From assembly GCF_964204865.1 (NCBI RefSeq), contig NC_135251.1, positions 13,330,001 through 13,394,000 of the forward strand: DNA of 64,000 nt, read 5' to 3'. The first letter of the stretch is position 1. Each line of letters opens with the position of its first letter. The notes below the pieces were generated by a model. It was not told where the DNA came from and made no database searches. It saw nothing but the letters and a program-made list of their open reading frames with translations. Source of the stretch: Styela clava. Taxonomy: Eukaryota > Chordata > Ascidiacea > Stolidobranchia > Styelidae. Shown in pieces: positions 4,754 through 35,500 of this stretch. Position numbers and translations under genes: made by a program.

Positions 4754-4950
4754 GCTCCCGAAGTATGTGAACCAAGATGGCGGACACCGGAACGTAGTAT
4801 GTGTACCAGGTTAGGGTTAGGCCATAATTTCAGGTACAAATACTACAGGGGTCACTTGGCTAGTTCTTGGAACTCCGTAATTATGGCCTAACCTGGTACA
4901 CATACTACGTTCCAGTATCCGCCATCTAGGTTCACGCACTTCAGGAGTAC
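4754..4950. mobile_element. Palindromic MITE (AAGATGGCGGACAC family)
   Basis: The two ends are long inverted repeats, roughly 4754-4828 against 4876-4950, sharing GAAGTATGTGAACC-type ends, AGATGGCGGA and GTATGTGTACCAGGTTAG. There is no coding capacity. Relatives lie at 11880-12090, 24471-24667, 33561-33668 and 41688-41818, so this is a dispersed family. The superfamily is not clear to me. Confidence 0.8.
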
Positions 4951-7906: not shown

Positions 7907-10900
7907 ATGCGGGGTTTTTGGCATTTTCAAGTACTAGCTGTAACGTTAATATTATCAAATGATATTTGTAATATAAAAGCAACATCAGAGCCGGTAGGTC
8001 CGGCGAACACGGCGCAACCAGGAGATTTTCTCGAAGAAACTGTGCGTAACTTTCTGACTAATACAGCGGGATTAGAGGAATTTCAAGAAATAATTGATTC
8101 GTCCGAGTTCGCATACACAAGACTTGATTCTGAAAATCTTGTGCACGAAATGGTGGCATCGTTAACTGAAAAATTTCGAAACACAGCTTCTGCAGTGGAA
8201 CGTTTACGGACGGCAGCGACACAAGCGTATTCATATGGCCAATGGATTTATGATGTTACTGAGTGTTGCCAGCTTGAAATCATGAATGGCTCTTGGTCGC
8301 CGAAATATGACCAAAGATTTGGAAGAGAGGTAACTTGGCTATATTATAGGTGGATCCCCAAAGAACGGAACTCTGGTCATTTGAAACATAAGAAAAATAG
8401 GTTTTTAATTGACTCAAAAAACGACATCGCATTCGCTGATTAATTATCACTACATTTCAATAACGCGTTCGCACAAACCCGTGTAGTCCCTTGAATCCCA
8501 CCACTGCCCTTACGTCACCGCACCTCGCAGTTTGAATCCTGTAGGTGTAGGGGGTAATTATGTGCGAGATGATTGCTGAACTCCTCGTCGCCGTAGAGTG
8601 GTTCACGTAAATGCTGGTTGGTTATGGTTAAGTCATGCATATGAAACAAATACTTGGCTAACGAAGCCCACACCCGACATGGACTGGTAACCGGACGAGA
8701 GGTCGTAGTTCGCCATATGATTAAGCCGCCATATCGGCTTTCTTATCCCCAGGGTCAAATATGTAAATCCTGTCTTATCCTAACGAAACTTCTCACAGGT
8801 CGACCTGTTTCAAGCATGTGCTAGAATAAGTGGAGATAGATACGCAGAAGCACGTTTGTATGAAACTATGCGTCGATCACCGTCATCATTGATTGCATCT
8901 TCTATGGAAAGTCTCTACTCAACGTCAGGAATCAAATATCAGTATTACGGAAGTGAAGAAGGAATGTTTACACAATACCCTGCTGCAAGTACCGGGTTTG
9001 ATTGTACATCTTACGACAACAGATTCCGTCCATGGTAAGTGTACTCCCCACCGATACCAAAATTCAAACAGGGTGACTATTGTATATTGCGCATCTTATA
9101 AGATGCGTAATATACAATAGTCACCCTGTTTGAATTTTGGTACATTACTCATAGCAATAGAAAATAAATTTATGAAATTGTAACAGGTATGTCGTTGCTG
9201 CCACACCGCAACCTAAAGATGTTGTTATCGTGATCGACACATCTGGCTCAATGTTGATGGAAAATCGAATGGAAGGAGCAAAGGCAGCAGTAGCTACAGT
9301 ACTTGAGACCCTCAATCCTAATGACCGAGTTGCCGTAATTGCGTTTTCCAGCAATATAATTCTCCCCCCTGGACCACCACACTGTTACCAAGAGGAAATG
9401 GCTCTTGCAACTCCAGCCAACACCAAGTATTTACGCCAATGGGTTGGAGGACTATACGCCATGGGCGGGACACATTTCATCAGCCCTCTCAACGCAGCCT
9501 TTGATTACTTTGAGACCACGTATGAAGATACTTCAGATTATTCGGAGATATCAAGAAATCAAGTCATACTTTTTATGTCGGATGGCGAACCAAATGATAA
9601 TAAAACAGACATTTTCTGGACGATTTACAACAGAAATGCAAAATTTCATCACTCGATTGTGATTATGACGTATGCATTCGGTGCTCAAGCCCCCGGTGAA
9701 GTGTTAGAAAAAATGTCTCGACAAGACGGTACGGATTACGGTGTTCCGAGGGCCTCTGCCGCTCGAGAGGGATTACACGTTGCTATAACTGACACTGACA
9801 ATCTGAGGTATTTTTAACGACAATCTTTCCACGCTGATAAATGTTTATATTGGAAATGAATATCATTTATTTTCAGAACAAAAATGGGTTCTTACTACAA
9901 TTTCTTCAAGTCAGAATCAATCAATACACACGTACACTGGAGCGTGCCATATTACGATGCCATCGGTGGAGCTGGTCTCGTCATAACGGCATCTGCTGCT
10001 GTAGTTTATGATGGTTTGTATAATTCTCTAAACTTTAAAACGAAACTGGAATTTTGGGCTGAAAAGCGTTAGTTTGTCAAATACAACTAGCGAGTTTCAA
10101 AAATCGCAAAACAAATTTGAAAAAATACAGAATTGAGTTCTGGAGCATGATTTTATCTGTTGTCTAACATTCGAAAACGGTTAATACGCTTTTGTTTCTC
10201 GCAATAACAAGATTTTGCAAGACGATCTCTTAGTCCACCCGATGTCCAGTTATAGAACTTCGGTAAACCATTTATCTATAAATATTTATTTATTCAAATG
10301 TTTTTATTTCAAATCTACAGACTTGTATTTTCACTATCTGATTATAGTTGTTAATAATCTGTAGCAAATATCACATATATTTAACATAACATATATTATT
10401 ATACAGGAACCCTGAAAGGTGTTGTTGGTGCAGATATAAGCATGAGAGAATTATTGACAGAAATAACGTATTTTAAAGTGAACAGTGATATGGGATACTC
10501 ATTCCTTGTTGATAAAAACTTTCGAGCTATTGCTCATCCGTTCTTACCGGCACCGTCATCTGTCGACGGTGATCCTGTAATGGTGAATATTACTATGTTG
10601 GAAAGGAGGTAAGATTCATAAAAATTAGATTGTGTCAGATGTTAGGTACATGCTTTTTAGAGTGTCGGTGATTATAAATGCTGATTCGTAATATCGTATT
10701 TGCTCGTTTAATAGTCCGGGCGCTTATTTTTTAAACATACTCACTAACCGGGCCCTTATTCAAACCGGCCCTTATTCAAGCAGGGGCGCTTGTTAATTTT
10801 AAAGTAAAATTACACACAAAAATACCGGTAGATACCAATCGTTACAATAATTGATACCGTATATTGTCATTTCCAGTTCACAAGTATGATTTAAACGAGA

Positions 10901-13900
10901 ATAATGAAAATTTCGACTTTTTTTACGCATCGCAGGTACAAATCCGCAAAAAAAAAAAAAAACTTTTACACCGGGCGGGTATTCAAGCACCGGCGCTTAT
11001 TTATTTTTATGTCCTGTTCACATGGGCGGCTATTCAAACGGGCCCTTAATCAAGACCGGGCGTTAAAACGAGCATTTACGGTATGTGGGACAAGTACATA
11101 CGAGTTCAATTACCCCATGGCAAACAAGTACCGGAAATAGTTTGTGTTATTTCATGAAAGTTATTTATTCTTCTAGCCATCACATTTCTCGAAGCGGTGA
11201 TAATAGACTTTTCCCTACTCTGGAATTGTTTTCGCGAGTTGTCGCTTACAAACTGGCTTGCACGTTTCAAAGCTATCATTTTTACTCAAAAGATTCAAGA
11301 ATCTACCATTTACACATACTCATAGCTGATTTTGGTTAGGCATATATATATGATGCATATATCTTTACGGCTAAATTTTTATTACTGCAACTACGCTAAA
11401 AACGCTCTGGAAGATAAAATGACCATTGAGTAAATTGATTTATCCCCAAATTTTGGAAACACAACCAAAAACTGATAAATACCTCAAAAAATCGGAAGCG
11501 AGCTGATGTTAACCACCACTTCAAAAATCGGCAATACAGTATTGAAAAATATCTGAGCGTTTGCCAAAATTTGAACAAATATTACGTCATGTCTGACATT
11601 GCTAATTAGTTAATGCTACAGAAATAAACAAGGAAGTCGATGCTCAGGGAGTAATTCACGTATTTGTATGCCACCCCAATTGCCAGACCAGGCTGATCAT
11701 ATTGTTATTTTGACGGATAGTTATGATGCTTTTCATATTTTATCTATTTAGTCCTGCGTTGAAAGATGGTCTTTTGCCTGCGATTATGAATTTGTACAAC
11801 CACGATAGTATTCACGATATGGCGGCAACGATGGAAATTCGCACAATGTTTGTAAAAGAGGCGGTAAGCAGAATTAGTTTTCCGTAGTGTGTGTACCAGG
11901 TTGAGGTTAGGCCATAATTTTATTCCGATTTTGCTTATTTTAGTTCTATTACGAGTTCGGGACTGTCTGTATTAGACAAATGAATATACCCACTTCACAT
12001 GGGTTTCAGTCTCTTCACACAACTTAATGTAAAGTAGGCGAACAAAAGTAGTTACCGCCAAATTGGTACACATACTTCTGGAGCGCCGTTTCACTCACTG
12101 ATATGCGCTCGACAACATATTGTTTATTCACTACTGAAATCTACTCCAGATTCAATATTTTATCTGTTTGCCAGGAGCATGGCTTGGTCTCAGCCGAATC
12201 AAAGTTGGCCAGATTTTCATGTCAGTTGGTTACGGATTCTCCGTTCGCAGCATGTGTGGTAGTTGATACGGTTAGAAATACACAGAGTACCTTAGAAGAA
12301 CAAGAAGTTTCAGATTCACCATCTTTCCAATATCACAGGTAAAGAGGATCTATCCTATTCGAAGTCAGTATTTACCAGTACAATTACGGTGTTGAACGTT
12401 CAAATAGCATGTCATCGTAACTTCAATACTGTTAAAATGTGTCGGTCGTTAAATGTTCAAATGGCATTTCACTGTGACTTCAATACTGTTAAAAAGCGTC
12501 TGTCGTGAAACATTTAAATAGAGTTCACCGTAACGTTAATACTGTCAATATTCGATTTTACTGGAGGTATTAGTTTGGGTTACAACGCGAGACAACTCTA
12601 TTAAGTCCATGACCATAATGTACGAATCACATTTTTTCGTTTTAGACTTGACCTCGATCCTCCGGAGAATGAATGTCTGCATTTGAGCCGCATCGCATAT
12701 CACGGGTCTGCAGTTAAGTTGTCGCCGAAAGCATTCAAACATATGGAAAGGTAAAGTATGCTCAACTTCCTTTGCATGATCAAAATTACTTGCCAGTTTT
12801 CCAGCAATTATCACTTGTAATTTTAGTATAAAACTTGCTGCCCTCATTTGGAAATAAAATAATCAACTAGGCGTAACTTTGGCCAGTCACAGACAGAAAA
12901 ACAAGAAAGATAAACTGCTCATCAAGTAGAATCCCAGCCACCCAAATAATAGCAAATACCGGTACGACCCGGTTTACAGCAGCTATTCGAAGTTAGTGTG
13001 ACTATTTCCTCATAGCATAAACTATCGTAATATATATATTTTGTTGGGCAGATAAGCGACCTCGTCGATCTTGAACTAGTAGGAAACTAGACTGCTTGTA
13101 GCTACCGGCGAAGTAACCACCTTTTTCTAACATAACACATATATCGTTTATTATAGTTACTTAGAATTTGAAGAGACTGCAAACAACGTCACATCTTATA
13201 AAAACATGATTGAAAATGATTTCTACGACGAAGAAGGATTGCAAATAGAGCAAGCTGCAGTAAATGATGTAAGGCTAACGTCAAGGTATTTGTTTCCTAT
13301 TGTATTTTATTTAATCCATTTGTAAAAAAAATACCACCTTATTATTAATCACATATACAGAATGGATGAGATATGGAAGAATAACAATATCTTCAATGCA
13401 TCTATTCCCGCTTTGTGGCGTTATTTAGGAACTGAATCTGGTGTGTTTCGAATATGGCCAGGAGTACGCTTGGCACAGGTGAATTAATCTTATGTTATAT
13501 GTAGCGTAATTAATTTTAAACTCGATATCTTTATCATACAACGCATTAATTTACATCCAAACGTACTTTCTGTATATCTGATTTGAGAGCGCCATATGAT
13601 GTTGTTACCTTCGCAGCATCAAGCTCTCACATGAGCAAACTACGGCCCGTGGGCCAAATCCGGCCCGTTTTGTACTCAAATATGGCCACAATCAAACTAC
13701 CAAATTCTGATGTTTTAGCTAAAAAAAAAAATAGTCCACGGAATTGTTGAGGTTGCGATTTAATTTAGTTTTGACACGAGGCATATTGTTTTCCACTTTT
13801 GCTTTTGTAACGCTGTGAATATTGTTCATCGTCACACTTACAAGTTCCGCCAGTCTAGGTGGGCAAAATTGTTGGCCCTGGTTCAAAAAACCTTGCCCAC

Positions 13901-16900
13901 CGCTGAATTCTAGGTCATACACGCAATCACTTTTTGAATATATCACCGTAACAAACACGCCGCGTAGATGATGTTCATACTCTCTGCTAAATTCTGGCAC
14001 ATCCGACTGGGAAGGTTCTATAGTCTAATGTGTCCTACGTCGATCATAGAAAGAAACTCCACTGTAAATGTAAAATGACGGTTCGTGCAATATTTCTCCA
14101 CTATTATCGATATAATGTCTAATTTATTCACTTTAACTGTGCTGTTTCTCTGGCACCGTTGGCTATAATTCGTACAGATACATCTTTTGCAAGAATAAAC
14201 TTATATGTGTATTTTATGGTCGCCTGTAACTAATATTCACTTTCAGTTCAGAGGTAGATGCCTTTCTTTGATCGAATTAATATTTGAATTCATATTTTTT
14301 TCTTTTAACTACCTCCACGCAAATTGTTGAGCGGATGAACAAACAAGGATCATACTATAGTAAAATATTATTTGGATTATTTACGCCATCAGTATAATAA
14401 CGCAATTTTAGGATACTAGGTACATAATCATTTAATGAAATGATTTTTTTATTTTTAAGGAATACGATCCTACATTGAGGCCATGGTATAAGACAGCAAT
14501 GGCGCATCGTGATGATCTCGCAATAACAACTCCATACACCGACGCATCGACAGGAATGTGGATTATAACTATGACAAAGGCTGTTATGGTTGACGAAGGA
14601 CATCCATACGGAGTAATTGCATCAGACGTATTCCTATCTGATTTCAAGGTGGGTAGAGTTTCTTAAAGTAAGCTACACGTATGGAAATTTTTAGAAGAGG
14701 ACGCCCTGATTGTTTTCTAAATTTTTGTTTTTGTTATTATTGCCGCTTCTCTCTATACCAGTGGTTCTGATACTTTTTAGAATTTTTCAAGTCCCGCGCT
14801 CCACCTCAAAAATAACTAGCTATCAATGAGCTACAAATAACAGATAGTAAGGCGAAAGTTTGTTTTATTCAAAAAACACGTTGAAAATACGTGGATGGAA
14901 CGTAAATATCCAACATTAGGCGGACAAGATCGAATCTAACAAAAATGTTTGTATTTTCAATTAGCTTCACGCCCACTCAAAAAACTGTCTACGCCCCCCT
15001 TGTTGGGCGCGCCCCACCGTTTGGGAACCACTGCTCTTTTACTATAACTTCTGTATAATTTTTTTGGGGGGGGGGACGCCCGGTTCGGAGAGAACGACAT
15101 ATAAATACGTCTTATAAAATAATTGTTGGTAAAGCAAGATGGAGATGTCGTAACGTTATACTGCTGGCACTCTTAAATATTTTATCCGGAATTATGCAGC
15201 TTCGATTCAGGTCAAATTATTCCGATTTTACAAAATTTCGCCGCACCGTCGAATGGTCGATTCATTTTCCAATGAGAGCCGTTGTTTTACTTGACGATAG
15301 GCTCCCGTGTAACGGACTTCTTGTTCATATACATTCACAAGTTTTTATTTCAATCTATTACTTTGTTTAATCAATGTTCATTTGTTTTAAAAATTACATG
15401 TATTACTGGAATACATTTTATACGTGAAAATAGTAACTATAAATATTATGCTAAAATGGGCATTTATTTACAGGACATGTTTCTTGGGTACGAATGTGGA
15501 CGAGAGGATTGTACTTTGATAGATCTATCCTGTCATGTAATCTATCATAAATCTTACTCGTGGTCTCATGGTTCGAGTGATATACTTGGACGTGATCTGA
15601 CTACTGTTGATCCAAATCTGGCAAGTGTAGTTTTCGACCAAAGATTGCTTGTTACTGAATCTTGCATTGACGTAAACAAAATAAGAACTGAGCATTCTTG
15701 CCGCGTTAATTTGGAAAAACTAGATCAATTGAGTGAAATTGATTTCGAAGGAAAGGAATTTTTCGCACGAAGAATACATGGGACCAATACAGTTCTTATT
15801 ATTAATCATTGGGATTCTCATTATTACTGTACGAAGCATGCTTCAGTCGATGAACATTGTCAGTGAGTGTAATTCATTTGTTAAATTTAGATAGCAGCTT
15901 TGACGAGATCTAGTTACCAGCGACCGGATATGTGGGCTAATACAATCAGAATGAGCTTTGTCATAAAATATTTGTAAATTTTAGTCGTAAATTATTTTTA
16001 AGAAATTTAGAAAATTGCAGTTGAGTATATATCTTAATTAAATCTCTTGCGCCATTTTTTTTGCGTGACAACTCTTTTCTGTAAACAACTATTAAATAAT
16101 ATCGCAGCGCCGTATTTATTTGAATAACTAAGAAATTGGGTCGGGATCATATTTTACCTTCGACATTGGGTACCGGATATTAATAGCCTTTTGAATATGT
16201 TATGCTGAAAGTTTCATAGTTTTTCAACATTAGAACCGCTACCAATTGATACTACAGCAACGATTCTTCCAGTTTCAATTTTCTTAATCAAGACCACCAG
16301 TTAATTCAACATCCTTAATCTAAGTAATTTTTTATTCGCAATTTACGCGACCTTAGAAAGATACTCAACCTTTGAATATAACACTTTCCCTTTTGTTTAT
16401 AGCTACGACGACAACAGCGAGTATTGCGAGTCAGCATGTCATACAAGTGCCAAATTCGACTACTGTAGCAATTCCGAATCTTACGACTGGGCTTTAGACC
16501 CACCACCATGCGTAGCCTCAAAGCCTAAAGTTAGCGTTTTGCCGCCTGTAGATGCTTTAACTGATTTGCCTTCGTGTTACGACGCTCTTGCATCATGGGA
16601 GACGGAATCGAATGACGGACTTTGGGATGACTATCCTGTTGACTATAATGAAAAGAAACCCCATTCCAATTCCTTTGGATTGATATTTGGCCTGTCAACG
16701 GCTGTAACGCTGGTGTTTGTCAGCTGTGTGATGTACGTATCCAGGAGTAAAAACAGATCAGTATCTCCTCAACAAACGCAGCACCAACAACCACACTTTC
16801 AAACGACACCGAATCAACAACCAATCATTCATCCAACAACAACAATGACTCAAAATCCTAATCAGTTCGCTGCGCCTTTCTCCCAACAACCAGGCTCTCC

Positions 16901-17108
16901 AAATCCTTATGTTCAAGTAAATATGACGAATCAATTTAGCGTTCCTCCAGGCACTATACAAAATCAACACCAACCTCCCCCAATTGCACCTCCATCTTAT
17001 AACAACGCAATGACGTTTGATAGCGGTATTCCACCGCCGCCAATCTACATTCCACCAACTCCTATAATTAATCCATCAGACCTACCACCTGCCCCTCGAT
17101 ACATGTGA
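7907..17108 (+). CDS. CACHD1/alpha2delta-like VWA-Cache membrane protein, copy A (13 exons)
   Basis: Exons 7907-8329, 8799-9034, 9187-9807, 9877-10013, 10407-10608, 11752-11863, 12175-12338, 12646-12750, 13157-13285, 13361-13478, 14460-14648, 15474-15862 and 16403-17108 join in frame to about 1176 aa. Order: signal peptide (about 1-25); N-terminal region ending in SYDNRFRPWY (212-221); VWA domain with a complete MIDAS (D237-T-S-G-S241, later GGTHF and MSDGEP); first Cache half; second Cache with EYDPTLRPWY (750-759); Cys-rich stretch; one TM helix (about 1033-1054); Gln/Pro-rich tail with PPSY (1138-1141). Family knowledge: alpha2delta and CACHD1 proteins modulate voltage-gated Ca2+ channels at the cell surface. 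The RIWPG and RPWY region is closest to CACHD1; the metal site and YxxxxRPWY before the VWA resemble alpha2delta. A tandem paralogue follows. Length is near human CACHD1, and the exon structure is very secure. Confidence 0.92.
8460..8785 (+). repeat. tRNA-derived SINE (degenerate) in intron 1 of CACHD1-like A
   Basis: The body matches the SINE at 35994-36311: TATGTGCGAGA-GATTGCT, GTGGTTCACGTAA-TGCTGG, TGGTAACCGGACGAGAGG, a CGCCATATG motif, a SINE-type 3' end and TATGTAAATCCT. The tRNA-like head is eroded. Confidence 0.7.
9055..9142. repeat. 88-bp near-perfect palindrome in intron 2 of CACHD1-like A
   Basis: Two 44-base arms (9055-9098 and 9099-9142) are reverse complements with one mismatch and no loop; the centre is CTTATAAG. 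The RNA would fold into a long hairpin. It ends 44 bases before the exon 3 acceptor. It is probably a short foldback MITE. Confidence 0.9.
10720..11080. repeat. Repeat rich in CGGGCGCTTATTCAAAC-type units, intron 5 of CACHD1-like A
   Basis: Short GC-rich phrases such as GGGCCCTTATTCAAAC, GGCGCTTATT and GGGCCCTTAATCAAG recur on either side of an AT-rich core with a poly-A run near 10950. The clusters at both edges suggest a degenerate non-autonomous element. Confidence 0.5.
11880..12090. mobile_element. MITE copy (GTGTGTACCAGGTTAGG family), intron 6 of CACHD1-like A
   Basis: It starts TCCGTAGTGTGTGTACCAGG and ends GTACACATACTTCTGGAGCG. About 200 bases match a copy in intron 10 of the neighbouring paralogue (24471-24667), and the ends match the palindromic MITE at 4754. 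Confidence 0.7.
12392..12550. repeat. Three imperfect 57-bp tandem units, intron 7 of CACHD1-like A
   Basis: Units begin at 12392, 12449 and 12506 and share GTTCAAATRGCAT, CTTCAATACTGTTAAAA and a GTCGGTCG-like end. The third is truncated and more diverged. Confidence 0.75.
13625..14030. mobile_element. hAT-like element remnant, intron 10 of CACHD1-like A
   Basis: The left end GAGCAAACTACGGCCCGTGG followed by CCAAATCCGGCCCG is typical of hAT-family ends. I could not fix the right end or a target duplication, so the extent is approximate. Confidence 0.4.
14759..15033. mobile_element. Short hAT-type MITE, intron 10 of CACHD1-like A
   Basis: The left end CAGTGGTTCTGATAC pairs with the right end GTTTGGGAACCACTG as hAT-type inverted repeats. 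GC-rich subterminal sequence (CCCGCGCTCCACC and GGGCGCGCCCCACC) supports one element. The flanks CTCTATAC and CTCTTTTA are at best a decayed 8-bp duplication. Confidence 0.65.
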
Positions 17109-17687
17109 ATATTACTGTTTAATATGCAATAAAATGATTGTACTTACTTCAATATGTGTTGTTCGAGTATTATTAGGAAATAGTCTGTGTCTTGACAACC
17201 ATTATGATATAATATTTGAAGTGGGCATATTTACAACTTACGAACTCAAAAGTTATTGTAAAAGAATCCTATTTCACTCGTTTACAAATACATTTTACGA
17301 GTTGGCTGGCAATATGCCAGCATTTATCAATAGTATCGGAATTTGAAATCGTTTGCTTAATTTTGAAATCGTTGTGATTTTCTACCTTCAAAATAGAACA
17401 GAAAAATATCTCAGACTATAAAATGATCCCATGCTGGTATGACACAAACGTTTTTAAAAAATTAACAAAAAAGAAGCTGTGTTTATGAATTTTTGATTTT
17501 AAGCACTCTTTATCGCCAATATCCAAAACAACTTGCTTGTCTGATAGTTAGATTATTACATCATAATAAAAACAGACTGCAAATTTTGGTAAAGAATAAC
17601 GAAGTATTTTCTTTAGTTGAACTAAAGTCCATGCCAGCGTCGTTTTCGTTTATTTTAGGCTCAAAACGTTCTGCTGTGATAGTTAAA
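17109..17687. other. Spacer between the two CACHD1-like genes, with polyA signal
   Basis: AATAAA at 17128-17133 lies 20 bases after the stop of copy A. The rest is AT-rich without a clear feature, apart from a strong 3' splice-like TTTATTTTAG ending at 17658, 29 bases before the ATG of copy B. Confidence 0.6.
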
Positions 17688-20600
17688 ATGTACAGCGCTC
17701 TACTGGCAAGTCTACTTATAATAGGTTTATGTTATGGGAGAGTGGATAGTCAGTCGTCATTCGCTGAAACAGTCGAGTCTTACGTGAATGACACTCTGGG
17801 GGCTGCGATAATGCAGAAAAAAATGAACGATGTTCAAACGTCAGAGAAAGCTATTGATTCGCAACCGCTCCTCCGTAAAATCGAAAAAAACATTTCCCAT
17901 AAATTGTCAAATTTAGCTGAATCAATGACAAAATTAAGGGAATCATTGAAAATCAAAACTCCAACCAAATCTGAAATCAAACTTCGAGACTGTTGTAAAG
18001 TAGCATACAGTTGGGAAGAAGGTCAACACAAGGTAAGGCTTACTATACTAAAGATAACTTTGCGATGAAGCATTGAATACCACGCATACATCATCTCATT
18101 ATTGCTTCGATTACAATTACAACTCGCTAAGACAGATGAACAAATCGAAAATATGAGTCAGGTTTATTATTAATACCTAGTTTCTAGATTAAGCATTGAA
18201 AAACGGTGCATTATTATAATACATGCAGTTCATGATTTTCTTCAGAAAAACCTACACATCTTCCACAACATCTGCAGGTAATACGCAAATTTGGAATATC
18301 AGTAGATCCGTATTAAAAGAAAAGTTAATTTCTGACTGTATTGTTAATTTAGGAGCCGTGGCACTCGTGTTATCCACAAAACTTGATGAAAAAACCTGAC
18401 CTGGGCATAATCAAACGCGATTGATCTTTCAAATAAAAATTTTGACTTGCATTTGTTTACCGCGATTTTATCAGATTTTTAATTCGCCACAAATTGTCCA
18501 GATTGACAACACTTCCTACTGTCTAATGCACAACGAGAAAGAATCGGCTGCCGATCTGGAAACTGACAATTTGTTGACTGCGGCTGCACATAATCGACGT
18601 TCTTATCCTGAAATAGGATACCAAAGATATCGAGGAATTAATGGGGCGATATTACAATATCCAGCTTATTATGGAGACATTTTTTGTGAGAAATCTGATG
18701 ATTTTGAATCGTGAGTACCGTGAACTTGATTTCACAATCTTAGCTTATTTAAATATAATAAAGTAATTTGCACTACAATTTGCAAAAGATATCTACGTGG
18801 AGTATATAAAATTAGAAAAAAGCTTTATTTTCAAGTGTATCTGCTAAGTTTTGAAAGAAAGCATTTTGTGTGGTTAATTCGTTAGCTGGAAATCAATTTT
18901 GGCCGGCTCGATGGATTAGCAGACTTAACGGTGTTGGCATCGCAAATTACACATTCCGGGTTCAAATCCTATTCCCGCCACATCATCCAGGGTGTAATAA
19001 ATTGAGTAGGCAGGCAGATTCCGGTTCTTCCTAATAATATGTAGCGCCATACATTTTGTTATATATTAGTGACTTCTTGTATAAGGAATGCCTTGTTTAA
19101 AACGAATGGCGGGATTTGACGTTGCATAATAAAAATTACATGCTATTACTACCCCTGTTTCCGCCCGAGTGCCAAATTCCTACCCACAAGTAAGCCTCTA
19201 TGTATGTACCGCCGGGACGGGTCAGATTATAGAAGAGTAAGTCTATTCAGACGACATTGAATCAATGTATCTAAGCAAAAGATATTTTTGTGGTTGATAT
19301 ATCTTAATTTGTTCATTGCAAATCCAGGTTTGCATCTTCATTTTTCTCGACTGCTAAAGACTTAGTTATCGTCATGGATGGTGATCTGTTGCAGCAGCAC
19401 AGACCAGAAATGATGGATGCGGTCGAATATGTTTTCAAAGCCGTTAACGTTGCAGACAACATTGCTTTTGTGGTTTATTCGTCTGATGTGGTGACTCTCT
19501 CTAATGGACCAAACGGTGCAATAAAATGCAAAAACAAAGAAATGGTTTCAGCTACGCACAAAAACGTAGAAGCGATTTTAGCCTGGTTAAAAACTACAGA
19601 ACGTAAAAGTGGAAATGCTAATTTTAGCAAAGCTCTGAATGCAGCATTTGACTATCTTGAAAACACAAGAAGCACGAATAGAAAAATGATATTATTTGTC
19701 AGTGGCTCCCAACACGAGGATTCCAAAGACGATATTCTACAGACAGTTTCCGATAGAAAATCAAATTTTCAGAATTCGGTGAATATTCTAACTTATGGCG
19801 TTAAAAATCCAGCAAGTAATGACGTTCTACAGGAAATTGCTGAATTGAATGAACCTGACACCGGAAAGCATTTCTCTTATGTGGAAGAGACAGATCATTT
19901 AATGTGAGACTATGTATATGGTATTAAATATAAACCGGAATAATATAAAAAAAATCCCTAAAAAAGTACGACAGTGTGTGGTAGAAATACGAAAACATAT
20001 AAACATACAATTACTAAATGTAAATGGAATATAAGATATATTGTGCACCATGAACTTAAACGACAATGGAGGATCTGATTAATGATACCAAACAAGCCTG
20101 TAGTGGAATTACGGATTGTACATTTATTTCTTCTCTGTATTAGTGATAATTAGTCAGAATCAAATGTTCAATTTTTCGTAGTCAGAGTCATTTATTAATC
20201 ACACGGAGTCAGAATTTCAGTCTTTAGTCAAGTAGGTAGTTGTAGTTGAAATTTTCTGTTGAAACTAATAGAAAGCAAACCTCGTAACTCTGTGTCAAAT
20301 AAAACTTTTATCCGATTGAACAAAACTACTTGATATAGTTTAATGGAGCAAAAAACGTGTTATATAAATTACAGAAAACACTTGTCATTTGAACATTTTC
20401 CTTCATCAAGCGAAAATGAGATTCAATGGAAATGGCCAGAATTAAATAAGCTTTCCGATGGTGAAATCGTGGTGACTGCTTTGCAATCAGTCTTTGTTGA
20501 TGGTAAATACATTATTACATGCATATATAATTATATACATCTGTAACCGATTCTCTTGATTACCGACTAAGAGTATGTACGTTTGGATGGTGACCGTCGA

Positions 20601-23600
20601 GCGCATTGTTGGACGCGAGTTGAACTCTTGGATCTATTGCTTTTCGATTTTCGGTTGTTTGAGAATTTTTTTGCCTATTTTGAAATGATTGGTTGAATTT
20701 CTCACTGACGAAAGTCCACTGGTAAAAACTTCGTTCTAATTGACCTACGCTTTGTTGTTTACAAACGAGCTTGCTTCTGTTTTCACAGATAAGTTGAAAG
20801 GCGTTATTAGCGTTGACATCTTATTGCAAGTTCTGATAAGTGAAGTCTTAAACTTCGAAGTACAAGAAGACGATGCATATGTTTTTGTCATGGACAAAAA
20901 TTTTAACGTTATTTACCATCCGTTCATTTCTTATTCTTCAAAACGTGAATGGTCGGACCGAATTCTCAATATTCGTGAACTAGAGAAAAGGTTTGTACAT
21001 CGTAAAGTATTTAAAAAAGTATTCTTACAAATGAGAATTAGCCTAAGATACAGAAGACGAGATAAATCAAAACACCATTCATACATTTCTCTCTCCTTTA
21101 ACCATCGGAGAGCATGCCCGTGTTTACTCACTAAGATCTGATGGAATAAGATTGAAAATTTAGAAATGAATATTTTAGTAGTTGTTGTGTATAATTACAA
21201 ATGCTTACAACTCTTAGGTCAGTTATCGTTCAGCTTCGTTTATTATCATTCATTAATTATATTCATCATTATTTTTTCAATAAAATATTTGATATCCCAA
21301 AATTACACGTAAAGAATCGTTAATATTGAAGAGTTGAGAGACTCAGACAACTGTAATTAACCACGTGAAAGCGAAAATCTAAATCTGAAGAAAATAGCTA
21401 AAATTCTTGCGTTGCTTTCCAGATAAATTCTTTGGTAACAACACCAAGTAGATTAATTTGATCGCGAGGTTTTCAAAAACCTAATCGAGTACCAACCGAC
21501 TTGTCGATTTCAATGGATTGACGAGGATAGGCAAGATTTAAATCCGATATAGACGACGCGAGTTATATATATACGATGACATGAGTGCTATGAAGTGCCG
21601 GTAGCAAATAAATATCAATTTGTCGCATTGCTGTATTTGTTGAATATTCATGTTCTTTTTTTAATTTTTTGTAGCGATGATTTACAAACACTCCTGTCTA
21701 AAATACAAGAAAACCAAGATTCTGAGAGTGTTTCCTCGGATCGAGTTATCACTGTATCAATGAAAACAACATGGAGGACGCTAAAGGTTAAATTGCTTTC
21801 TTGCATTTTATGCCGTCTCAAACTCGTTTGACCTTAAGAACTAAGGCAGGACTATTGTTGGATCCGAATTCCTGGTCTTTTTGAATTTTCAATGGAATAT
21901 ATTGAGAGCATTTTAAACTAAGAGAAGCATTTTGATTACTCTCTTTAGGTAATATAGTCCAGAAACAATGTCTAAACAATATATATAAAACAATCAAAAG
22001 AGTTTTGATGTAAATTAAAGATTTGTTAGAAAATTAAAATATACAATTACAATATTATTAATGTAACTTTGAATTGGGTTGCGCGCGACTAACTAACTCC
22101 CTATCTTTCCTCTATGCCTTTATGCTAGTGGATCCGTATGCATATACTGCAAGGATCCTGTATAGCGGGAATAGACATGACTATTCTATACAATTAAAGA
22201 GTCTTGCTGCACACTAACACAAATGTATTTCTGTAACGTTTCGTCCGACCAAAGTCAGACTTCCTCTGACAAGCAGTTTACAACAATGCTGTACAACTGG
22301 ACACTTTAATTGAATAGATTATTTAATGTAATTGTGTTTTCTTCTATTTGGTTTTGCAGGATAAAATAAATGCCGATTACTCTCTCCATAATTCCAAAGT
22401 AACGTGCGCATTAACAGATTTCAAACTTTTCACGGTTTGTCTAAACGTAAAAGATGGCGCCGAGAAGACGGTTCATGTAAAAGGTGTAACCGTTCCGGAA
22501 GAATTTCAATTTCATTATCACAGGTTAGCGTTACATTGCGTAAAATAGTATGCTGAGAAATTGAAAGTGCAAATCGTGTATCGGGTATATATATATAGTG
22601 TTTACTCAGCCTTGTAGCTGTGGTTTGTTTCATAGAATTGGTTTGGAAAATATTTCTTTTTCGCGTAACTCAAATTTATGAATTGACAGGTGTATTACCC
22701 TTTGTTGTTAGCTTTTTCGAATGATTATACCGGATATTTATTTCAATATTCATCTTCAGGATAGATTTCAGTGACAATCCCGAAGGTGACTGCAGTCATT
22801 TAAAAAGAGCATCATTCCTTGCAACAACAGTTTATCTTGCTCCAAAAGCATTTGTCAATCCAGACAGGTGATCATACTTTGAATAAAACGTTTAGCAGAA
22901 AAGTCATAATATTGCCGTACATCATTGATTACTGACAGCGGGCACACGCAGTATACTAATGGAACAGCGCATACAAGTGCATCTAGATTTGCGAACGAAT
23001 AAATAATATTTTTTGTCGTGTTCGTCTCATGTATCTACTCTATGACAGGAACGTCACGATATCGACTGTCGTTGGCATGAACTGCTGTAGAGAAATGTTT
23101 TTGAGAATTAAACAAAAATCATAATTTCACAAATTACGATTGTCACATGTTAGTTATAAGTGCGCGATCCAAACATAGAGCTGAAAACTTCACAAGCCAG
23201 CCGTTATACCAACGAAACAACGCATCCAATTGAACCTTCAGTTGCAAATGAACAAATAATATTTTTGTTTTGTGTGCGTGATTTATGATTATTCTATGGC
23301 AAGAAAAGTTTCAAGCAGGCCATCAATCTTTCTTCTGAACTAATTTCGTTTTAGTAAGATAGTAGTATACCTAGCCAAATAACTTACAAATTGACGACAG
23401 TTCTTGTAAAAGGTGTTAACGAGAGAAAAGAATTGGGTCAATGCATAAATTCTGAAAAATCATATAGATCCGAGAAAATTAAAATACAGTTCTTTGCGAT
23501 AAATCTATTTGAAACTGTGATAATTGCATTCATATTTTATTAGCACTGATAGATCTTCACTATCTTTAACAGATATTTGACCCAGGACGAAGATCCAAGC

Positions 23601-26600
23601 CGCATTGAAAAATATGCAAAAGACATCCAAACACAGAGTGGAAATATAATCACTGATTCTGCAATCCAGGATATCTTTTTGACGTTTGGGTAAAAATTGT
23701 TTTCATGTTATTTTTCAAATTGAATAAAATACTAACATGGGTAAAATACCAACAGGGTGTAAAAATGTTTTAATCACTGTAATTTACTTAGGATATGATC
23801 ATTAAAGTATCAATGGGGAAACTTCACATTCCACAGAATATATAATAAGAAAATTATCATTATTTTTTAGAATATACTTCACTATAGAATATTTTATTTT
23901 GCTTACGATTACATCTATAAAACTGAATATTGCTATATATATTATTTATTTTTATAATAGCTTTTTATTTTCCTACCAATATACTACAGTAGAACGTGGA
24001 TGACAATAAATATACGGTATACGGTAACGCTTTTATAATGCAAAACTTCAGAAAAAAAAAAATTAAGAAAAATACCTATTTACAATTATAATACAGGTAC
24101 ATGTCTGTTAACGGAAAATCTACTTTATGGTTCAATTTGTGGAATCATAAAATTTGGAATAAAACAGTGGCCCGGTGACCCCATATAAAAAACAAATTGT
24201 GTAAATAAATGTCTTCCAGGAAGACACTTCTATCTTTAACAGTATTTTTTCTTTGATAACTTTGATTGGGGGGCGTGAAAAAGTAAAGACTAGCTAAAAT
24301 ATTGTCTGTATCTTCAGTTTAGAGGAGCACTGGTTCGAATCTGATGAGAACGAAAATCTATTCAAATCTCAGATTGCCCCACATGTAATATGGAAATATA
24401 TTGGAACCAAAAATGGAGTGCTCCGTATATGGCCTGGAGTTCAACTTTCTAAGGTGAGATTTTAGGTACTTCCGTAGTGTGTGTACCAGGTTAGGGTCAG
24501 GCCCTAATTTTATTCCGATTTCCCTTATTTTAGTTATATTACGAGTTCAGGGACTGTCTGTGTTAGCCAAGTGAATATACCCCCATTCCCATAGGTTTCA
24601 GTCCCTTCACACAACTTGATGTGAAGTGGGCGAACAAAATTAGTTACCTACACTTCTGGAGCGCCCGTTGGAGAATTTAATATCGTTAGGTGATCATAAA
24701 AGCTTTTCTCTTCATGGATGCATCATGAGGAATTAGGTATATATTGAAGTTTCGTGTTATAAAAAATCCTATTGTACATTGTATTTCTCGTTCTTCTTGT
24801 TTGTCGAATTCATTTGTGTGTCTAAGCATTTTTATTCACAGGATTTTGATCACACTGCAAGGCCTTGGTATCAGGCAGCTCTGACAAACAAGGATGACAA
24901 ATTCACCATTACTTCGCCGTATTTGGATGCGGCCACTAAAGAGTGGATCATATCGTTTTCAAAAGCAATCACCATGAAAACTTCATCTGATAGCGATAAA
25001 GTTTACGCAGTCATTGGATATGATATTACAATCTGGAAATTCTATGTGAGTTATTAATATTTCATAACAAAATTCCCTTCGAAAAAAATTGTTAAAAAGT
25101 ACGATTGAGCTAAAGAATAAATAACTTTTGCCATGAAAATTCGTTCAGAATGCGTATACTAATAGTTTATTGCAGAATTCCAAGTTATAATTCATAGAAT
25201 CGATACACAAAAAAAATTAAAATAGATACATGTATAATTGGCTTTTAATTAAGTAGGGAGAAGAATTATCTGGGCTATTGGACGATACCTTGCTTGAAAC
25301 TAAACCTAAATGATTCAATAAAAATGTATTAAAAAGTCACAGCATTCATCTTGACAAAACTTTTCTTATCAGGAAATGCTACAAGCTATCGACAAACGCT
25401 GCAACGACATGTGTATGATATTAGATCCGTCAGGGTACGTTGTCTATCATCCCAACATGATTATAGATAATTATGACTACAAGAGTCATGTGGTCGAATT
25501 TGAACCGGCCGTTTCCAAGTTTCTCATCGACAAAAAGATTTTTATAAAACAACGATGCTTTGATCAGGGATCTCAAAAAGCTTATCGAGAATATCACAGC
25601 GTGGATGTACAGAAGTTGCCTGCAAGTGGCGACAGTGATCTATTCAGATTAGAACTTCTTGCCGGCACTCATATTATCCTATTTTCAAGTCATGAATCTG
25701 GCAGGTGGGAAAGTTGGGAGCAATGCTCAAAGGAAGAGATCAGATCATCCTGCAGGTACGAATATGTAAAGAACTGGTCAATGGCGTTATTTTTCCACCT
25801 CTTTTATCCACCATATATTTAGCACATTGACAATTATCTATTCCAGGGTCGTCCAACTTTCTTGGCCAAAGGGCCATATGTACTTTACTAATAATTACGC
25901 GGGACACTTAACATGGCATTTTGTTATAGTTTTGCTACACTGACTACAGGTTAATGAAAAAACAAACACTACCCGCACATCAGACTTTCACAATTATTAT
26001 ACCAATAAAACTGTTGTTATCCAATCATTGATTGGGCGCCATCAGTAGTTATTTTCGAAAGTTTCGCCAAAGCCAAGCCAAGACGCTTGATCTTTTTCAT
26101 CACAGCTCCCAACAGACCGATGCCCCTAGTCGTACCCTTAATATGGACAATGGCTGCGAGTTCTGCAGTATTTTTAAAATCATTAATAACTCCCCGCAAG
26201 AAGATCGACAACTAAGCAGTAACCTGGATATCATTGCTCTCGTCAAGCGGCAAGGAATACGATGAAAATTTTCCCGCCTTTGAAATTAAAGTTTCCGCTG
26301 TAGAGTTCTCCAGCTCTTCAGCATGACGAGGAATGGCCTATCTTGACAGACTATTTCTGCAAACACCTCTTTTATTTCCGGACGTAAAACGTTGGCAACT
26401 CGAACAATACATGATATACATTCCTTAACGAATTCTCAATCTGAAAATGGCTTCGATTGGTTTGCGATAACGTCATATAGATAGGCAAAAGACCAAGTGT
26501 GTAATCGTCTATGGCACCTTTATTTATCGATATCTCCTCCCAGTTGGTTTCGATTCAAATTGGCACTAATGGCTCGTTCGAAAGGGCTGGCGGAGCGCAT

Positions 26601-27505
26601 TTAAGGAAAAGAAACAAATCGATTGTATCACATATTTGTATACTACATCACTCAAAAAATAGTTTTACTTCAATTTTTCTTTAGTCAATCCCGAGAAATA
26701 CAGCGCGGGTCACTCGAAATGCTTCCGCAGACCACGGGTTGGACGACCCTGATCTGTTCTATTAGGCTACTTGACTACTTCGCATTCCTTGTTGAATTTT
26801 TCATTATGCGCCGGATTTTAATGAAATTTGTGTTTGGTTTGCAGAATTACAGATGCCTGCCAAACGCCATGCTTTAATAAATCAGAGTCAGAGTGTAGAA
26901 ATGAATATGTGACTGCATGTATTCCCGACCATCCCCACGTTCATCCCGTGCATGACGAACCACGCGAGTCGGACCCCTGTTTTGAACACTTGGATGATTT
27001 TCATGAAAATCGAATGAAACTAGAATTAGGGTGGCTGGGAAATGCTGTCAGTGGGTTCTTCATTATCGCATTCTCAATCGGATGCGCACTTGGTAAAAAA
27101 TGGTGGCTTGGAAATAGATCTCAACAACAACATGTACCTGGAGGAATCCCTCAAACTGCTATTTTAGCATCTGAATTTGGAGGTCAACCTGCCCAAGACT
27201 TTGTGAACGGTCCGATGCAACCTGGTATTGGGGGTCAATTCCCGCAAACAAACGGTCCCTTCTCTGGTGTGGTCGGTAATCCCCAGATCCCACAGGCGTA
27301 TGGGTTTGCTCCTATAGTTCAGCAACAAAATCAGTTCAACGCCCCTCCGGCCTATGGATACAATCCACAGCATCCAATTCCACCACCTCCCCCAGGTACG
27401 ACACCTATACCGCAAACTATGCCGGGGTTTATTCCCCCTGGATCCCAGCCACCATCGTACAACAGTGCAATGACTGGACAGTATAACACAACCCAGTTCA
27501 ATTAA
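17688..27505 (+). CDS. CACHD1-like VWA-Cache membrane protein, copy B, with degenerate VWA metal site (13 exons)
   Basis: Exons 17688-18032, 18502-18710, 19328-19903, 20375-20502, 20789-20990, 21675-21786, 22360-22523, 22760-22867, 23573-23689, 24318-24453, 24842-25045, 25373-25755 and 26845-27505 join in frame to about 1114 aa. Every intron matches copy A in position and phase, so the pair arose by tandem duplication. The ATG at 17688 starts a clear signal peptide (MYSALLASLLIIGLCYG). The VWA keeps its fold pattern (DLVIVMD, LNAAFDYL, ILTYGV), but the MIDAS reads D202-G-D-L-L, the Thr loop reads GNANF and the third loop FVSGSQ. The motif ahead of the VWA is also lost. The second Cache keeps DFDHTARPWY (700-709), with Phe for Tyr as in human CACHD1. 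One TM helix (about 958-978) and a Pro/Gln tail with PPAY and PPSY follow. It is probably surface-anchored with a non-metal-dependent role. Confidence 0.9.
18900..19060 (+). repeat. Possible tRNA-derived SINE, intron 2 of CACHD1-like B
   Basis: GGCCGGCTCGATGGATTAGC resembles an A-box region, and GGGTTCAAATCC about 60 bases on is a good B box. The 3' part differs from the other SINEs in the window, so it would be a second family. Confidence 0.45.
24471..24667. mobile_element. MITE copy, intron 10 of CACHD1-like B
   Basis: It is closely similar over its length to 11880-12090, with the same ends. It sits in a non-homologous intron of the paralogue, so the two insertions are independent rather than inherited through the gene duplication. 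Confidence 0.7.
25844..26840 (-). mobile_element. Degenerate hAT transposon with transposase remnant in intron 12 of CACHD1-like B
   Basis: CAGGGTCGTCCAACTTTCTTGGCC at 25844 is a hAT-like terminus. On the minus strand, about 26320 down to 26017, the reading frame (one internal stop) gives FSSYSLPLDESNDIQVTA and then KGTTRG and KITTDGAQSM. This pattern belongs to the catalytic core of hAT transposases of the GTF2IRD2/SCAND3-related group. Further upstream the frame is broken. The right end was not located; the end given is the intron end and is only an upper bound. Confidence 0.7.
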
Positions 27506-27564
27506 ATTACATTTTTGTTATTAATATTTTTTCATTTTATGTCGCACAACCTATGTAAGATGCT

Positions 27565-27570
27565 AATAAA
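27565..27570 (+). terminator. Candidate polyadenylation signal of CACHD1-like B
   Basis: AATAAA lies 60 bases after the stop codon of copy B. Confidence 0.55.
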
Positions 27571-28296
27571 TATTGTAATGTCGTTACGATTTTGATTTAT
27601 GAATGTTTCGCATTTTGAATTTAAACACTAAGCTTTCCGGGAAACGGTCGGGTTTCTATATTTCCCAAGGGAGAGGAAAGTCGACAAAATGGCTTGATCA
27701 TATGAGCACGGCTTCTTCGTCGATTACCAATCGCGTTCTGTTATGAACAAATGCATGGGCTTGGAGTCCAGCAATTCGTTCGCAAAAAGATAAGTGATTT
27801 AGAACTTTGCCATACACAATACAAACACACAGGAAGAAAATTCAGAAAAGTTGCAAAATGATGTTCAAAATATGGGACAAAAAAGTACTGCATGACAATC
27901 TCCTTTTGGAAATTTCAATAAAAATGAAAAAGTCTGATAATGCATAAATAAAGAAATCGATGAGATGCTCCTTAATCGGACTAATCTTGTGAGTAGTGTG
28001 ATAATATATGTGGATGACGTATTCGCAGGAGCAGTGGAAATAAAAGAAATAATGTAATAAATGCGGACACATACTAACCGCGCATACCAGGTATAACATT
28101 GTCCCGTGAACGCACTAAAGGTAATAAGCGATGACTTGTATATCTCTTAAAGCCCATTGCGAAGGCACCAAACATTAACAAATGCTGAACACCTAGTCCG
28201 TATTACAACAAAATATATGTAAAGATTAAAGATATGATCCAAATACTTCCGATTTCGGCCAGGTCAAATCTTCAATCAGTAAATATTACTCCAGAG

Positions 28297-32542: not shown

Positions 32543-35500
32543 TTACATTTCTTCATCATCATCGTCCAAACCATCATCAAGCGGAGGAAAATCTCCACAT
32601 TTAACACTGAAAGGTCTCAGAAAACTGCCATATTTATTAGCACATTCAAAATATTTTATTCCATCTACAGTTCCATTATTTTTTCCATATGGTTCATCAT
32701 ATTCAACACCAATCCATAAGTTAGGTTGAAACTCTGTCATACCTAGAAAAATTTGGTTATGATAACAAATAAACCTGTGTTGCATTACATGTAGAGAAAG
32801 AGCACTCGGATTGAATCTGGACATTTACTCTTGGGTAAAGGGGGTAAGTGGATCACTCATCCAGTTACCAGTCCAGATTGGGTATGGTATATCAATTCCA
32901 CGCTTCAGAAAACAAATAACTGGCTAATTAATCCCATACCCACCTTGGACTGGTAACCTGACAAGGGGCTGTGGATTGTCATATGATTTAGCCGTCTTTT
33001 CTCCTTTCCTTAAGAAATGAGGGCGTCTGACACAACGTCAGATTGTGTCATGCTTGTCTCGATAATAATCAAAGATGTAAATCCTATCCTATATGCATGG
33101 TGATGTCCATATATGTGTATAAAGTTTGTGATCAACTCAAATGTTTTTTTTTTGAATAAGGTATAAAATAAAGAATAATTAATTACTGCCACTCAAAAAA
33201 AAAATGCAAAAATACAAGCTAGAAAATTAAACTAACTAAATATATTCATTGAATAATATATCAAATTCACATAATACCTTCATTTAACTAGGGTTAATCT
33301 TACCAACAAATTTCACTGTGCCCCTTCGTGGCATATTATTTGGCAGCTTAACTTCACATCTGCTGCCAACTTTTATATTTTCCAACGCTTCCTTCTCCAT
33401 CTGTTTCCTTTCTTCCTCTTTTTGTTTCATTCTTACCTGTTCTTCAGGATCGTATTTTCCCATTTTTTTCTTTTTTAAAAATGCTCTAACAGAATCTATG
33501 AAAATAATGAGTAATTAGGTCTTAAACACACAAACAAGACCTTACCCATTTAATAATTCCGCGCTCCCGGAGTATGTGCACCAAGATAGCGCACAACCTG
33601 AACCCTAACCTGGTACAACTACTATGTTCAGGTTGTGCGCAATCTTAGTGCACATACTTCTGGAGGTTCAATAATCCAATACTATTGATAGAATTTTATT
33701 TTGATAGACATATGACTAATTTTTAAATACTCCCTGAAATATTCAGATGAAATTTTCAAAGAGGAAACGTTTGATACGATAGCATAGTTTGCAGTAGTGA
33801 AGTCTCAAGGTACAAACCTGATTTTTTACTATAGGCTTCGTCTGATATCGAATATTTTTCTACTTTCGATACATCTTCGTATTCCCCAACTTTTCTAGAC
33901 TTTTCTCTGTCAATAACCTGAAATGTTAAATAAATACTTATATATAATAACACTTGTAATATAATTATTATTTATTTTATTTCATATTGGATGAAGCCAT
34001 CCAATAGGGCTGGGCATTTTCGAATATCTGATGATTTCAGAATCAAATCAAATATTTTTTCCAAATAGAATCTATATTACTTGGAAGATATGTAATTCTA
34101 CTGACTGTTTCATTGTAATGGGTCCTTTAGATACATAAATTAGTGAATACACGTAATCTATTACTCACACAGTTCGCAGAGTGTTCACAAATAGTGAGAA
34201 ACATGTTTCATCAATAACTCACTTGGAAGATAAGAGTCATATGTTAGAATTGCATTTTGAAAATTTGACATGAATTAAAAAAATGAGGGATTCATCTCGA
34301 CCTGTGGGCAGACAAAAAAAGCAAGACGGCGGCGATTTGAAATTCCCATCTAAACCGATTCGAATAATTCACTATTCGATTCGAATTGCCCATCCCTAAC
34401 CATTTGAAGTCATCAGAGTCTGTTACCAGCTTAAACATTTCCTCCAAAAGAAACTTCAAAATGAAGCTTTCCATGCGGTAATTAAAAAAATAGTTGCTAA
34501 CTTGCTACCACCTGGCTTATATATCTTTAATAACTTACATGCAGTCTCATATTATCATCAATATGATATGAACCAAGAAGTGCAGATGAGTCGCTCAATT
34601 TACAAGCGAGTTTATTATCTTCTGTATAAACTTCCAAGTCCATGTTAAGTGCAGGAATACCTGTTATGAGCTCCAGTTTATCCTGTACAAACGATATGAC
34701 AAAACAATATGGTAAACACATGGATTGTATTATGCAGGTTTATGTTATGTGAACTTGTGAAGAATGTTTGACTAAGAATAAGTGAGACATTAAATTGTTG
34801 AACACAAAACCTTAGAGACAATGAAAATTAAAAATGAACTTCAGGGGTCGAGCAGTCTTTATATATCACAGAAGCATAAAAAAATTACACAACAATAACA
34901 TATAGAAAGTAATTTTGAGGTAAATGCATCAGAATTATGCTGTGAATTAATATTTATTTTTTTTCAAAAGTCAAGAATATCAAAGTATTCATATATCTAG
35001 ATATAGAAATCCATGAATAGCTTTACGGCCCATGGACAATACGCCCAAGATATTTTGTCCCTTGAACCATTCCAATGTATAACCCGCAAATGATAATTTG
35101 AGTTATGACTTTGACTATCGGCCATCTTGAGCTTTGTTTAAAAATAATAATATCTAAATACACAAATATATATATACAGTATAGATTCATTCACTACAGT
35201 AGCGACATATACCATATAGCCTACTGTTAATTTGTGATTGGAAAATTCGAAGCCCTGGGGCAAAAGTCTGTATAGTCTATACCAATAAATATTCTGTCAC
35301 TTTGTCAAGAATAGGTATCGGTACCGTAAAACAGAAACAAAGAATAAAGTATAGTTTTGTAAAGTAAAGTATTGTATTTGAATTGTGAATTTAGTATAAT
35401 GGGCACAGTTCTCTGATTCCAAGATGTCCCGACATTTGGTCCAATAAAACAAACAAACACTCTATTTGTCTCAGAAATGAGGGCATCTGACACAACGTCA

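Follow-up and report, generated by a model that had tools for sequence, protein, structure and literature searches.

A tandem pair of CACHD1-like genes in Styela clava: intact metal and amino-acid sites in one copy and a divergent membrane-distal half in the other

The DNA studied here is a window of 64,000 nucleotides from the ascidian Styela clava (assembly GCF_964204865.1, contig NC_135251.1, positions 13,330,001 to 13,394,000 of the forward strand); all coordinates without a contig name refer to this window. It carries two adjoining CACHD1-like genes, termed copy A and copy B. CACHD1 is a relative of the alpha2delta proteins with a disrupted metal ion-dependent adhesion site (MIDAS) (PMC6231325). 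Copies A and B are probably tandem duplicates within a CACHD1-like family in which the MIDAS and the amino-acid pocket of the first dCache domain were ancestrally intact; the outer, membrane-distal half of copy B would have diverged and lost both sites separately from the vertebrates.

Gene structures and family identity

Models of the two genes, derived anew from the raw sequence, consist of the following parts:

7907..17108, + strand: copy A, CACHD1-like gene; spliced model of 13 exons and 1176 amino acids, all introns GT-AG, open frame; match to CACHD1 (8S7C) with E=6.7e-72
7907-8329, 8799-9034, 9187-9807, 9877-10013, 10407-10608, 11752-11863, 12175-12338, + strand: copy A, exons 1-7
12646-12750, 13157-13285, 13361-13478, 14460-14648, 15474-15862, 16403-17108 (stop included), + strand: copy A, exons 8-13
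17688..27505, + strand: copy B, CACHD1-like gene; spliced model of 13 exons and 1123 amino acids, all introns GT-AG, open frame; match to CACHD1 (8S7C) with E=1.4e-47
17688-18032, 18475-18710, 19328-19903, 20375-20502, 20789-20990, 21675-21786, 22360-22523, + strand: copy B, exons 1-7
22760-22867, 23573-23689, 24318-24453, 24842-25045, 25373-25755, 26845-27505 (stop included), + strand: copy B, exons 8-13

The intron phases are identical at 12 of 12 junctions, and 10 of the 12 fall in the same alignment column, the first two being displaced by gaps. The two proteins share 27% identity (blastp, E=6.7e-107). Because the 13-exon frames are open, the introns are of the GT-AG type and the motifs lie where a preliminary description of this DNA had placed them, two real and complete genes stand behind that description. 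Its picture of an intact and a degenerate CACHD1-like paralogue in tandem agrees with the models: the genes are complete and adjoining, and CACHD1 is the best match of both.

In searches of the PDB, mouse CACHD1 (8S7C) scores best for copy A with 245.8 bits, compared with 68.8 bits for the best alpha2delta-1 entry, and for copy B with 165.2 bits, compared with 14.8 bits for alpha2delta-1. The alignments to 8S7C span nearly the whole ectodomain, residues 42-1013 of A and 20-943 of B, and it is only weakly that the phmmer alignment reaches into the Cys-rich (FZI) region at these C-terminal ends. In a Pfam scan with E up to 1, the two proteins match VWA and cache domains—the VWA of copy B is still recognized as VWA_3 with E=6.2e-8—and neither of them matches VGCC_alpha2 (PF08473). 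A C-terminal transmembrane helix is predicted from hydropathy windows alone at residues 1030-1055 of A and 967-987 of B. The other hydrophobic windows of B are residues 1-19, the signal peptide, and 431-451, which lie inside the first dCache and are taken as globular. Long Pro/Gln-rich tails are predicted after the helix, with 124 residues from A1053 and 128 residues from B996. The tails (16734-17105 and 27119-27502) have PPSYN(N/S)AMT in common, and each features two PPxY motifs (shuffle P 0.02 for A and 0.01 for B), possible ligands of WW domains of the NEDD4 type.

As judged by these matches, A and B are both CACHD1-like, and not one alpha2delta-like and one CACHD1-like protein. The earlier proposal that A kept an alpha2delta-like mode while B became CACHD1-like finds no support in the bit scores or in the predicted helix and tail of both. 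With vertebrate CACHD1 (PDB 8S7C/9EQ6), the copies share the VWA inside the first dCache, the second dCache, the predicted transmembrane helix and cytoplasmic tail and the second-dCache signature. The vertebrate protein differs in its DHGAS motif and in the number of key sites kept, as detailed below, and homology of A and B in the FZI region is not established. Copy A resembles alpha2delta-1 (CACNA2D1) in its intact MIDAS (DxSxS, T, D) and its full first-dCache signature (YxxxxRxWY ... Y ... D). Unlike alpha2delta-1, A and B lack a VGCC_alpha2 match, score much lower against alpha2delta-1 itself, end in a predicted transmembrane helix and a long tail where alpha2delta-1 has a terminal glycosylphosphatidylinositol (GPI) signal, and carry a second-dCache signature that is absent from alpha2delta-1. 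The dCache_1 domains of the bacterial amino-acid chemoreceptors PctA, PctB and PctC match the second dCache of A and B, including the RxWY region (PctA 5LTX, 1.1e-11 for A and 9.5e-9 for B); the methyl-accepting domain of these receptors was not found in A or B, which belong to an animal membrane-protein context.

Key sites in the pair and its paralogues

Eleven sites were scored (numbering of copy A): D237, S239, S241, T315 and D352 of the MIDAS, and Y213, R218, W220, Y221, Y452 and D482 of the first pocket. The VWA and pocket comparison of the two copies was made at the sequence level. The segments concerned are as follows:

9012..9190 (9012-9034 joined to 9187-9190), + strand: copy A, first-dCache amino-acid half-motif YDNRFRPWY, residues 213-221
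18688..19331 (18688-18710 joined to 19328-19331), + strand: copy B, same junction, EKSDDFESF; Tyr, Arg and Trp absent
9236..9250, + strand: copy A, MIDAS motif DTSGS
9464..9478, + strand: copy A, MIDAS loop 2, GGTHF (Thr315)
9575..9592, + strand: copy A, MIDAS loop 3, MSDGEP (Asp352)
19377..19391, + strand: copy B, degenerate MIDAS motif DGDLL, first Asp alone kept
19611..19625, + strand: copy B, loop 2, GNANF, Thr to Ala
19698..19712, + strand: copy B, loop 3, VSGSQ, Asp to Gly
14463..14489, + strand: copy A, second-dCache amino-acid half-motif YDPTLRPWY
24845..24871, + strand: copy B, second-dCache half-motif FDHTARPWY, kept

The six uninterrupted motifs had been reported at these same positions. 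YDNRFRPWY of copy A is interrupted by intron 2 after the TG of the Trp codon, and the spliced models confirm EKSDDFESF of copy B at the equivalent phase-2 junction, its Tyr, Arg and Trp positions gone. The intron that splits YDNRFRPWY in copy A (intron 2) contains, by eye, a near-perfect palindrome with arms of approximately 40 bases (9057-9142). The printed amino-acid motif reads YxxxRxWY ... Y ... D (PMC9901441); alpha2delta-1 (YDVRRRPWY) and copy A have four residues from Tyr to Arg, compared with three in the printed form. The same source credits alpha2delta and Cachd1 jointly with a universal amino-acid pocket, and its available text does not specify which dCache of Cachd1 is meant.

All 11 sites are kept in copy A and in human alpha2delta-1, 7 in mouse CACHD1 and 2 in copy B. 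The reported retention of the MIDAS by A and its loss by B are thus reproduced. The claim that B lost the amino-acid-binding signature holds for its first dCache and fails for its second, where R, W, Y, Y and D are kept and the first Tyr is replaced by Phe. Since the second-dCache signature is kept, copy B is not stripped of amino-acid signatures altogether. The half-motif reads YDPTLRPWY in A, FDHTARPWY in B and FDPTRRQWY in mouse CACHD1, with the later Tyr and Asp present in all three; in the second dCache of alpha2delta-1, four of these residues (first Tyr, Arg, Trp and later Asp) are missing.

Alternative exons restoring the lost motifs of B were sought on the + strand of 17500-27600 with the patterns [YF]xxxxRx[WF], RxWY, DxSxS and the [FS][ST]DG loop, and none was seen. 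The scan returned five matches: two on the genuine motif of the second dCache, two with stop codons and a lone DLSIS in intron 5; none lies in intron 2.

The Styela clava genome (376.6 Mb, 379 contigs) was searched with copy A. The CACHD1-like exons found were modeled with a spliced-alignment script as five further genes, so that the family has at least seven:

C10:15.590-15.603 Mb: C10copy, CACHD1-like, spliced-alignment model
C6, 9.512 Mb, 9.540 Mb and 9.558-9.571 Mb: cluster of C6a, C6b and C6c, CACHD1-like, spliced-alignment models
C6:1.386-1.392 Mb: C6d, CACHD1-like, spliced-alignment model

As a control, the script recovered 13 of 13 known exons of B with A as query, 10 of them exactly; the deviations were a partial exon 1, an exon 4 too long by 36 bases and a split exon 13. 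The models of C6b, C6c and C6d are partial, and those of C6a, C6c and C10copy alone were extended. The PDB search covered three of the five paralogues (C10copy, C6c and C6d), which score 225.5, 266.7 and 140.9 bits against CACHD1, compared with 71.9, 67.5 and 59.6 bits against alpha2delta-1. C10copy, C6a and C6b keep 11 of the 11 sites and C6c keeps 10 (Trp to Phe). C6d also counts 10 (Thr to Ser), although its first Tyr is probably read from intron sequence. Because the four paralogues with good site coverage keep 10 or 11 sites, the intact state looks ancestral and copy B the exception. Two details of the models need care: the C10copy model omits a WYQQAKA stretch readable in the same exon, which makes its Cys at A758 a model artefact, and C6a has a Lys at the last Asp of the second dCache, contrary to the signature, within an untrustworthy stretch of very short exons.

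C6a and C6b are closely similar copies approximately 28 kb apart with the MIDAS and the first pocket intact in both; this recent pair has a nonsynonymous-to-synonymous rate ratio (dN/dS) of 0.29 over 616 codons, indicating purifying selection and having no direct bearing on B. C10copy (C10:15600301-15607000) may end, in an unmodeled frame, in a hydrophobic segment followed by approximately 12 residues, which is more GPI-signal-like than the tails of A and B. In a genome search with B, the highest score apart from B itself was that of A (63.9 bits), and the matches listed include no further B-like gene.

A separate, true alpha2delta gene lies at C10:16727604-16745344, with a VGCC_alpha2 match above the cut-off on contig C10, and an alpha2delta-like VWA exon was found at C8:7.055 Mb. 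A third VGCC_alpha2 match, on contig C16, is below the cut-off, and the 20 kb around it yielded no hit at E<0.1 to A, B or alpha2delta-1. The alpha2delta gene of Styela clava keeps 7 of the 11 sites. It reads FDSRISPWF where alpha2delta-1 reads YDVRRRPWY, with the gabapentin/amino-acid Arg replaced by Ser and the MIDAS Thr also by Ser. As read from the aligned residues, erosion of the key sites is not restricted to a single branch of the superfamily in this genome.

Phylogeny, rates and rival explanations

The tree was built from 691 columns and ten sequences. The sequence of alpha2delta-1 beyond about residue 544 is provisional, which affects the outgroup in the C half. A and B are sisters with a support of 94.4/94 (SH-like approximate likelihood-ratio test, SH-aLRT/ultrafast bootstrap, UFBoot), and C10copy joins them next with 98.6/87 for the three; with the extended models, A and B are again sisters (93.7/92 over the whole length). 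The branch of B measures 1.34 and that of A 0.56. The alpha2delta, C6d and CACHD1 sequences group together with weak support. Constraining B to join mouse CACHD1 was rejected (approximately unbiased test, AU, p=0.0042), as was joining A to mouse CACHD1 (AU p=0.0013). Because the tree joins B to A and rejects its union with CACHD1, the site loss of B is most likely independent of that in vertebrate CACHD1, as far as aligned residues tell. Separate losses are also the simplest reading, since B does not appear as the vertebrate orthologue in the trees, and A and four well-covered paralogues are intact.

The vertebrate loss is of a milder kind. The DHGAS of CACHD1 is conserved in human, rat, mouse and zebrafish (PMC6231325), and a variant R-S-R site has been described (PMC6527056); both printed descriptions match the alignment made here, in which mouse CACHD1 is without S239 and D352 of the MIDAS and without W220 and Y452 of the pocket. 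A downstream Thr and an Asp have been suggested to complete the vertebrate MIDAS still, and a perfect MIDAS is not always required for metal binding (PMC6527056). The first half-motif of mouse CACHD1, YEHRSRPIY, keeps Y, R and Y including the pocket arginine, and at five of the nine sites lost in B (S241, T315, Y213, R218 and Y221) the mouse protein keeps the ancestral residue. Since mouse CACHD1 keeps 7 sites including the ligand arginine, B does not simply repeat the vertebrate condition; by this count it is the more degenerate of the two. Of the two meanings offered for the pair in the preliminary description, an independent repeat of the loss is favored by the rejected union of B with CACHD1 and by the site counts. 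The other, that the pair shows how vertebrate CACHD1 lost its sites, does not hold because the five further CACHD1-like genes mostly keep them. No literature linking CACHD1 with Ciona or with tag-180 was found, and literature on alpha2delta with Ciona and the MIDAS was off topic by title and abstract.

The acceleration of copy B is confined to one half of the protein. Branch ratios were computed on the fixed maximum-likelihood topology for the N half (first dCache and VWA) and the C half (middle and second dCache) with 150 column bootstraps. The B/A ratio is 2.90 in the N half (bootstrap median 2.84, 95% 2.04-4.04) and 1.12 in the C half (median 1.17, 95% 0.71-1.80), and the former exceeded the latter in 150 of 150 bootstraps. 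Counts of reference-invariant residues point in the same direction in six of six reference sets; the branch-length bootstrap is preferred because the conserved-site comparison of the halves varies with the reference set. As judged by these measures, copy B shows decay or remodeling of a whole half, with the lost sites being part of it. Because the vertebrate protein binds LRP6 through its first cache and Frizzled through its C-terminal FZI domain (PMC7615972), the fast half of B includes the part that contacts LRP6 in vertebrates.

Several points weigh against this account. The tree draws on one invertebrate genome, with mouse CACHD1 as the sole vertebrate CACHD1. The AU test does not reject a grouping of A with C10copy that excludes B (p=0.077) or a clade that unites all seven genes and contains neither CACHD1 nor alpha2delta (p=0.24). 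When the halves are taken separately, the support for A and B as sisters drops to 82/75 (N half) and 51/56 (C half). All four sites lost in mouse CACHD1 are also lost in B, an overlap expected by chance with P=0.38. The conserved-site asymmetry is significant in two of the six reference sets (p=0.0097 and 0.0041), borderline in one (0.053) and not significant in three (0.35-0.40). Compared with general decay, the loss of the 11 sites gives P values of 0.115, 0.043, 0.079 and 0.034 inside the N half and of 0.013, 0.109, 0.139 and 0.080 over the whole protein (four reference sets); the loss need not have been targeted, since it exceeds general decay at most marginally. In addition, the weakened vertebrate MIDAS may still count because in neurons the channel mutation D122A reduced the effect of CACHD1 on CaV2.2 trafficking into neurites (PMC6231325).

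The foremost rival holds that the outer half of B did not decay but was remodeled under positive selection for a new partner. The recognizable VWA, the intact frame and the approximately threefold faster change of this half relative to A fit such neofunctionalization, which we regard as possible though doubtful. A and B have diverged too far for reliable synonymous counts, and these data do not distinguish relaxed constraint in B from positive selection.

That B and vertebrate CACHD1 are true counterparts, with one shared ancestral loss, is very unlikely. Both are transmembrane CACHD1-like proteins with a weakened MIDAS. Their overlap in lost sites neither supports nor excludes a shared loss because, with 9 of 11 sites lost in B, it arises by chance with P=0.38; against it stand the AU test and the five residues retained by the mouse protein, and an orthologue status of B was rejected on the former.

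Reading the highly divergent outer half of B as that of a pseudogene or an assembly artefact is hardly tenable and was rejected: the 13 exons form an open frame of 1123 codons in which no splice site or intron phase is lost, the second-dCache signature persists, the middle/second-dCache half is not clearly faster than in A, and the window lies inside a 31 Mb contig. It is just as improbable that the degenerate state seen as DHGAS in vertebrates (PMC6231325) was ancestral for CACHD1 and that A and its paralogues regained the sites, because identical residues would need repeated regain: the same 5-residue MIDAS occurs in alpha2delta-1, C10copy, C6a, C6b and C6c, and the same 6-residue pocket in alpha2delta-1, C10copy, C6a and C6b.

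Neighboring features and meaning for the family

Outside the two genes, the window carries a recent tandem segmental duplication (approximately 44000-51100 and 52100-59450) with a spacing of about 8.0-8.5 kb and an identity of 94-100% in ten pairs of 300-base copies. A gene with a CAP-Gly domain lies at 32546-33514 on the − strand and is presumably tubulin cofactor B-like. An open frame of 342 amino acids (42545-43570, + strand) features several hydrophobic stretches by eye and has no Pfam match above the cut-off. A dispersed element based on a string like gtaccaggttagggttaggcc was noticed by eye at approximately 4795-4925 (inverted), 11885-11960 and 24475-24560 and resembles a small transposable element.

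Under the preferred reading, that of tandem duplicates with ancestrally intact sites, the family plan would comprise a VWA inserted in the first dCache, a second dCache, a single C-terminal transmembrane helix and a Pro/Gln-rich tail, and the ancestral protein in this animal's family would have had both the MIDAS and the first-dCache amino-acid pocket intact. After the duplication, A would have remained constrained. It may bind partners via a metal-bridged VWA, with the first dCache sensing an amino acid, a two-pocket mode. In B, the membrane-distal half would have lost both sites and diverged at approximately three times the rate of A, while the middle and second-dCache half, amino-acid signature included, would have changed at about the rate of A. 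Copy B may thus be metal-independent and blind to a first-dCache ligand, acting via its membrane-proximal half. Vertebrate CACHD1 offers a possible analogy as a protein that would not need the metal-bridged contact: it raises CaV2.2 currents despite its disrupted MIDAS and despite mutation of the residue through which the channel meets the MIDAS of alpha2delta (PMC6231325). The loss in B would be separate from the milder one in vertebrates.

A more speculative extension, which we think rather unlikely, is that CACHD1-like proteins began as receptors with a metal-dependent VWA and two amino-acid pockets, that several genes of Styela clava preserve this original form and that B is a one-pocket, metal-free form sensing amino acids via the second dCache alone. 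If true, A and B would be a natural pair of a two-input and a one-input protein, in parallel with what happened in vertebrates. In Styela clava, CACHD1-like proteins whose MIDAS and amino-acid pocket are intact exist next to one that is degenerate in one half only. Comparing these naturally occurring forms could help to show which half of CACHD1 is responsible for its channel and Wnt-receptor functions, and it also bears on whether the second dCache of CACHD1 binds an amino acid.

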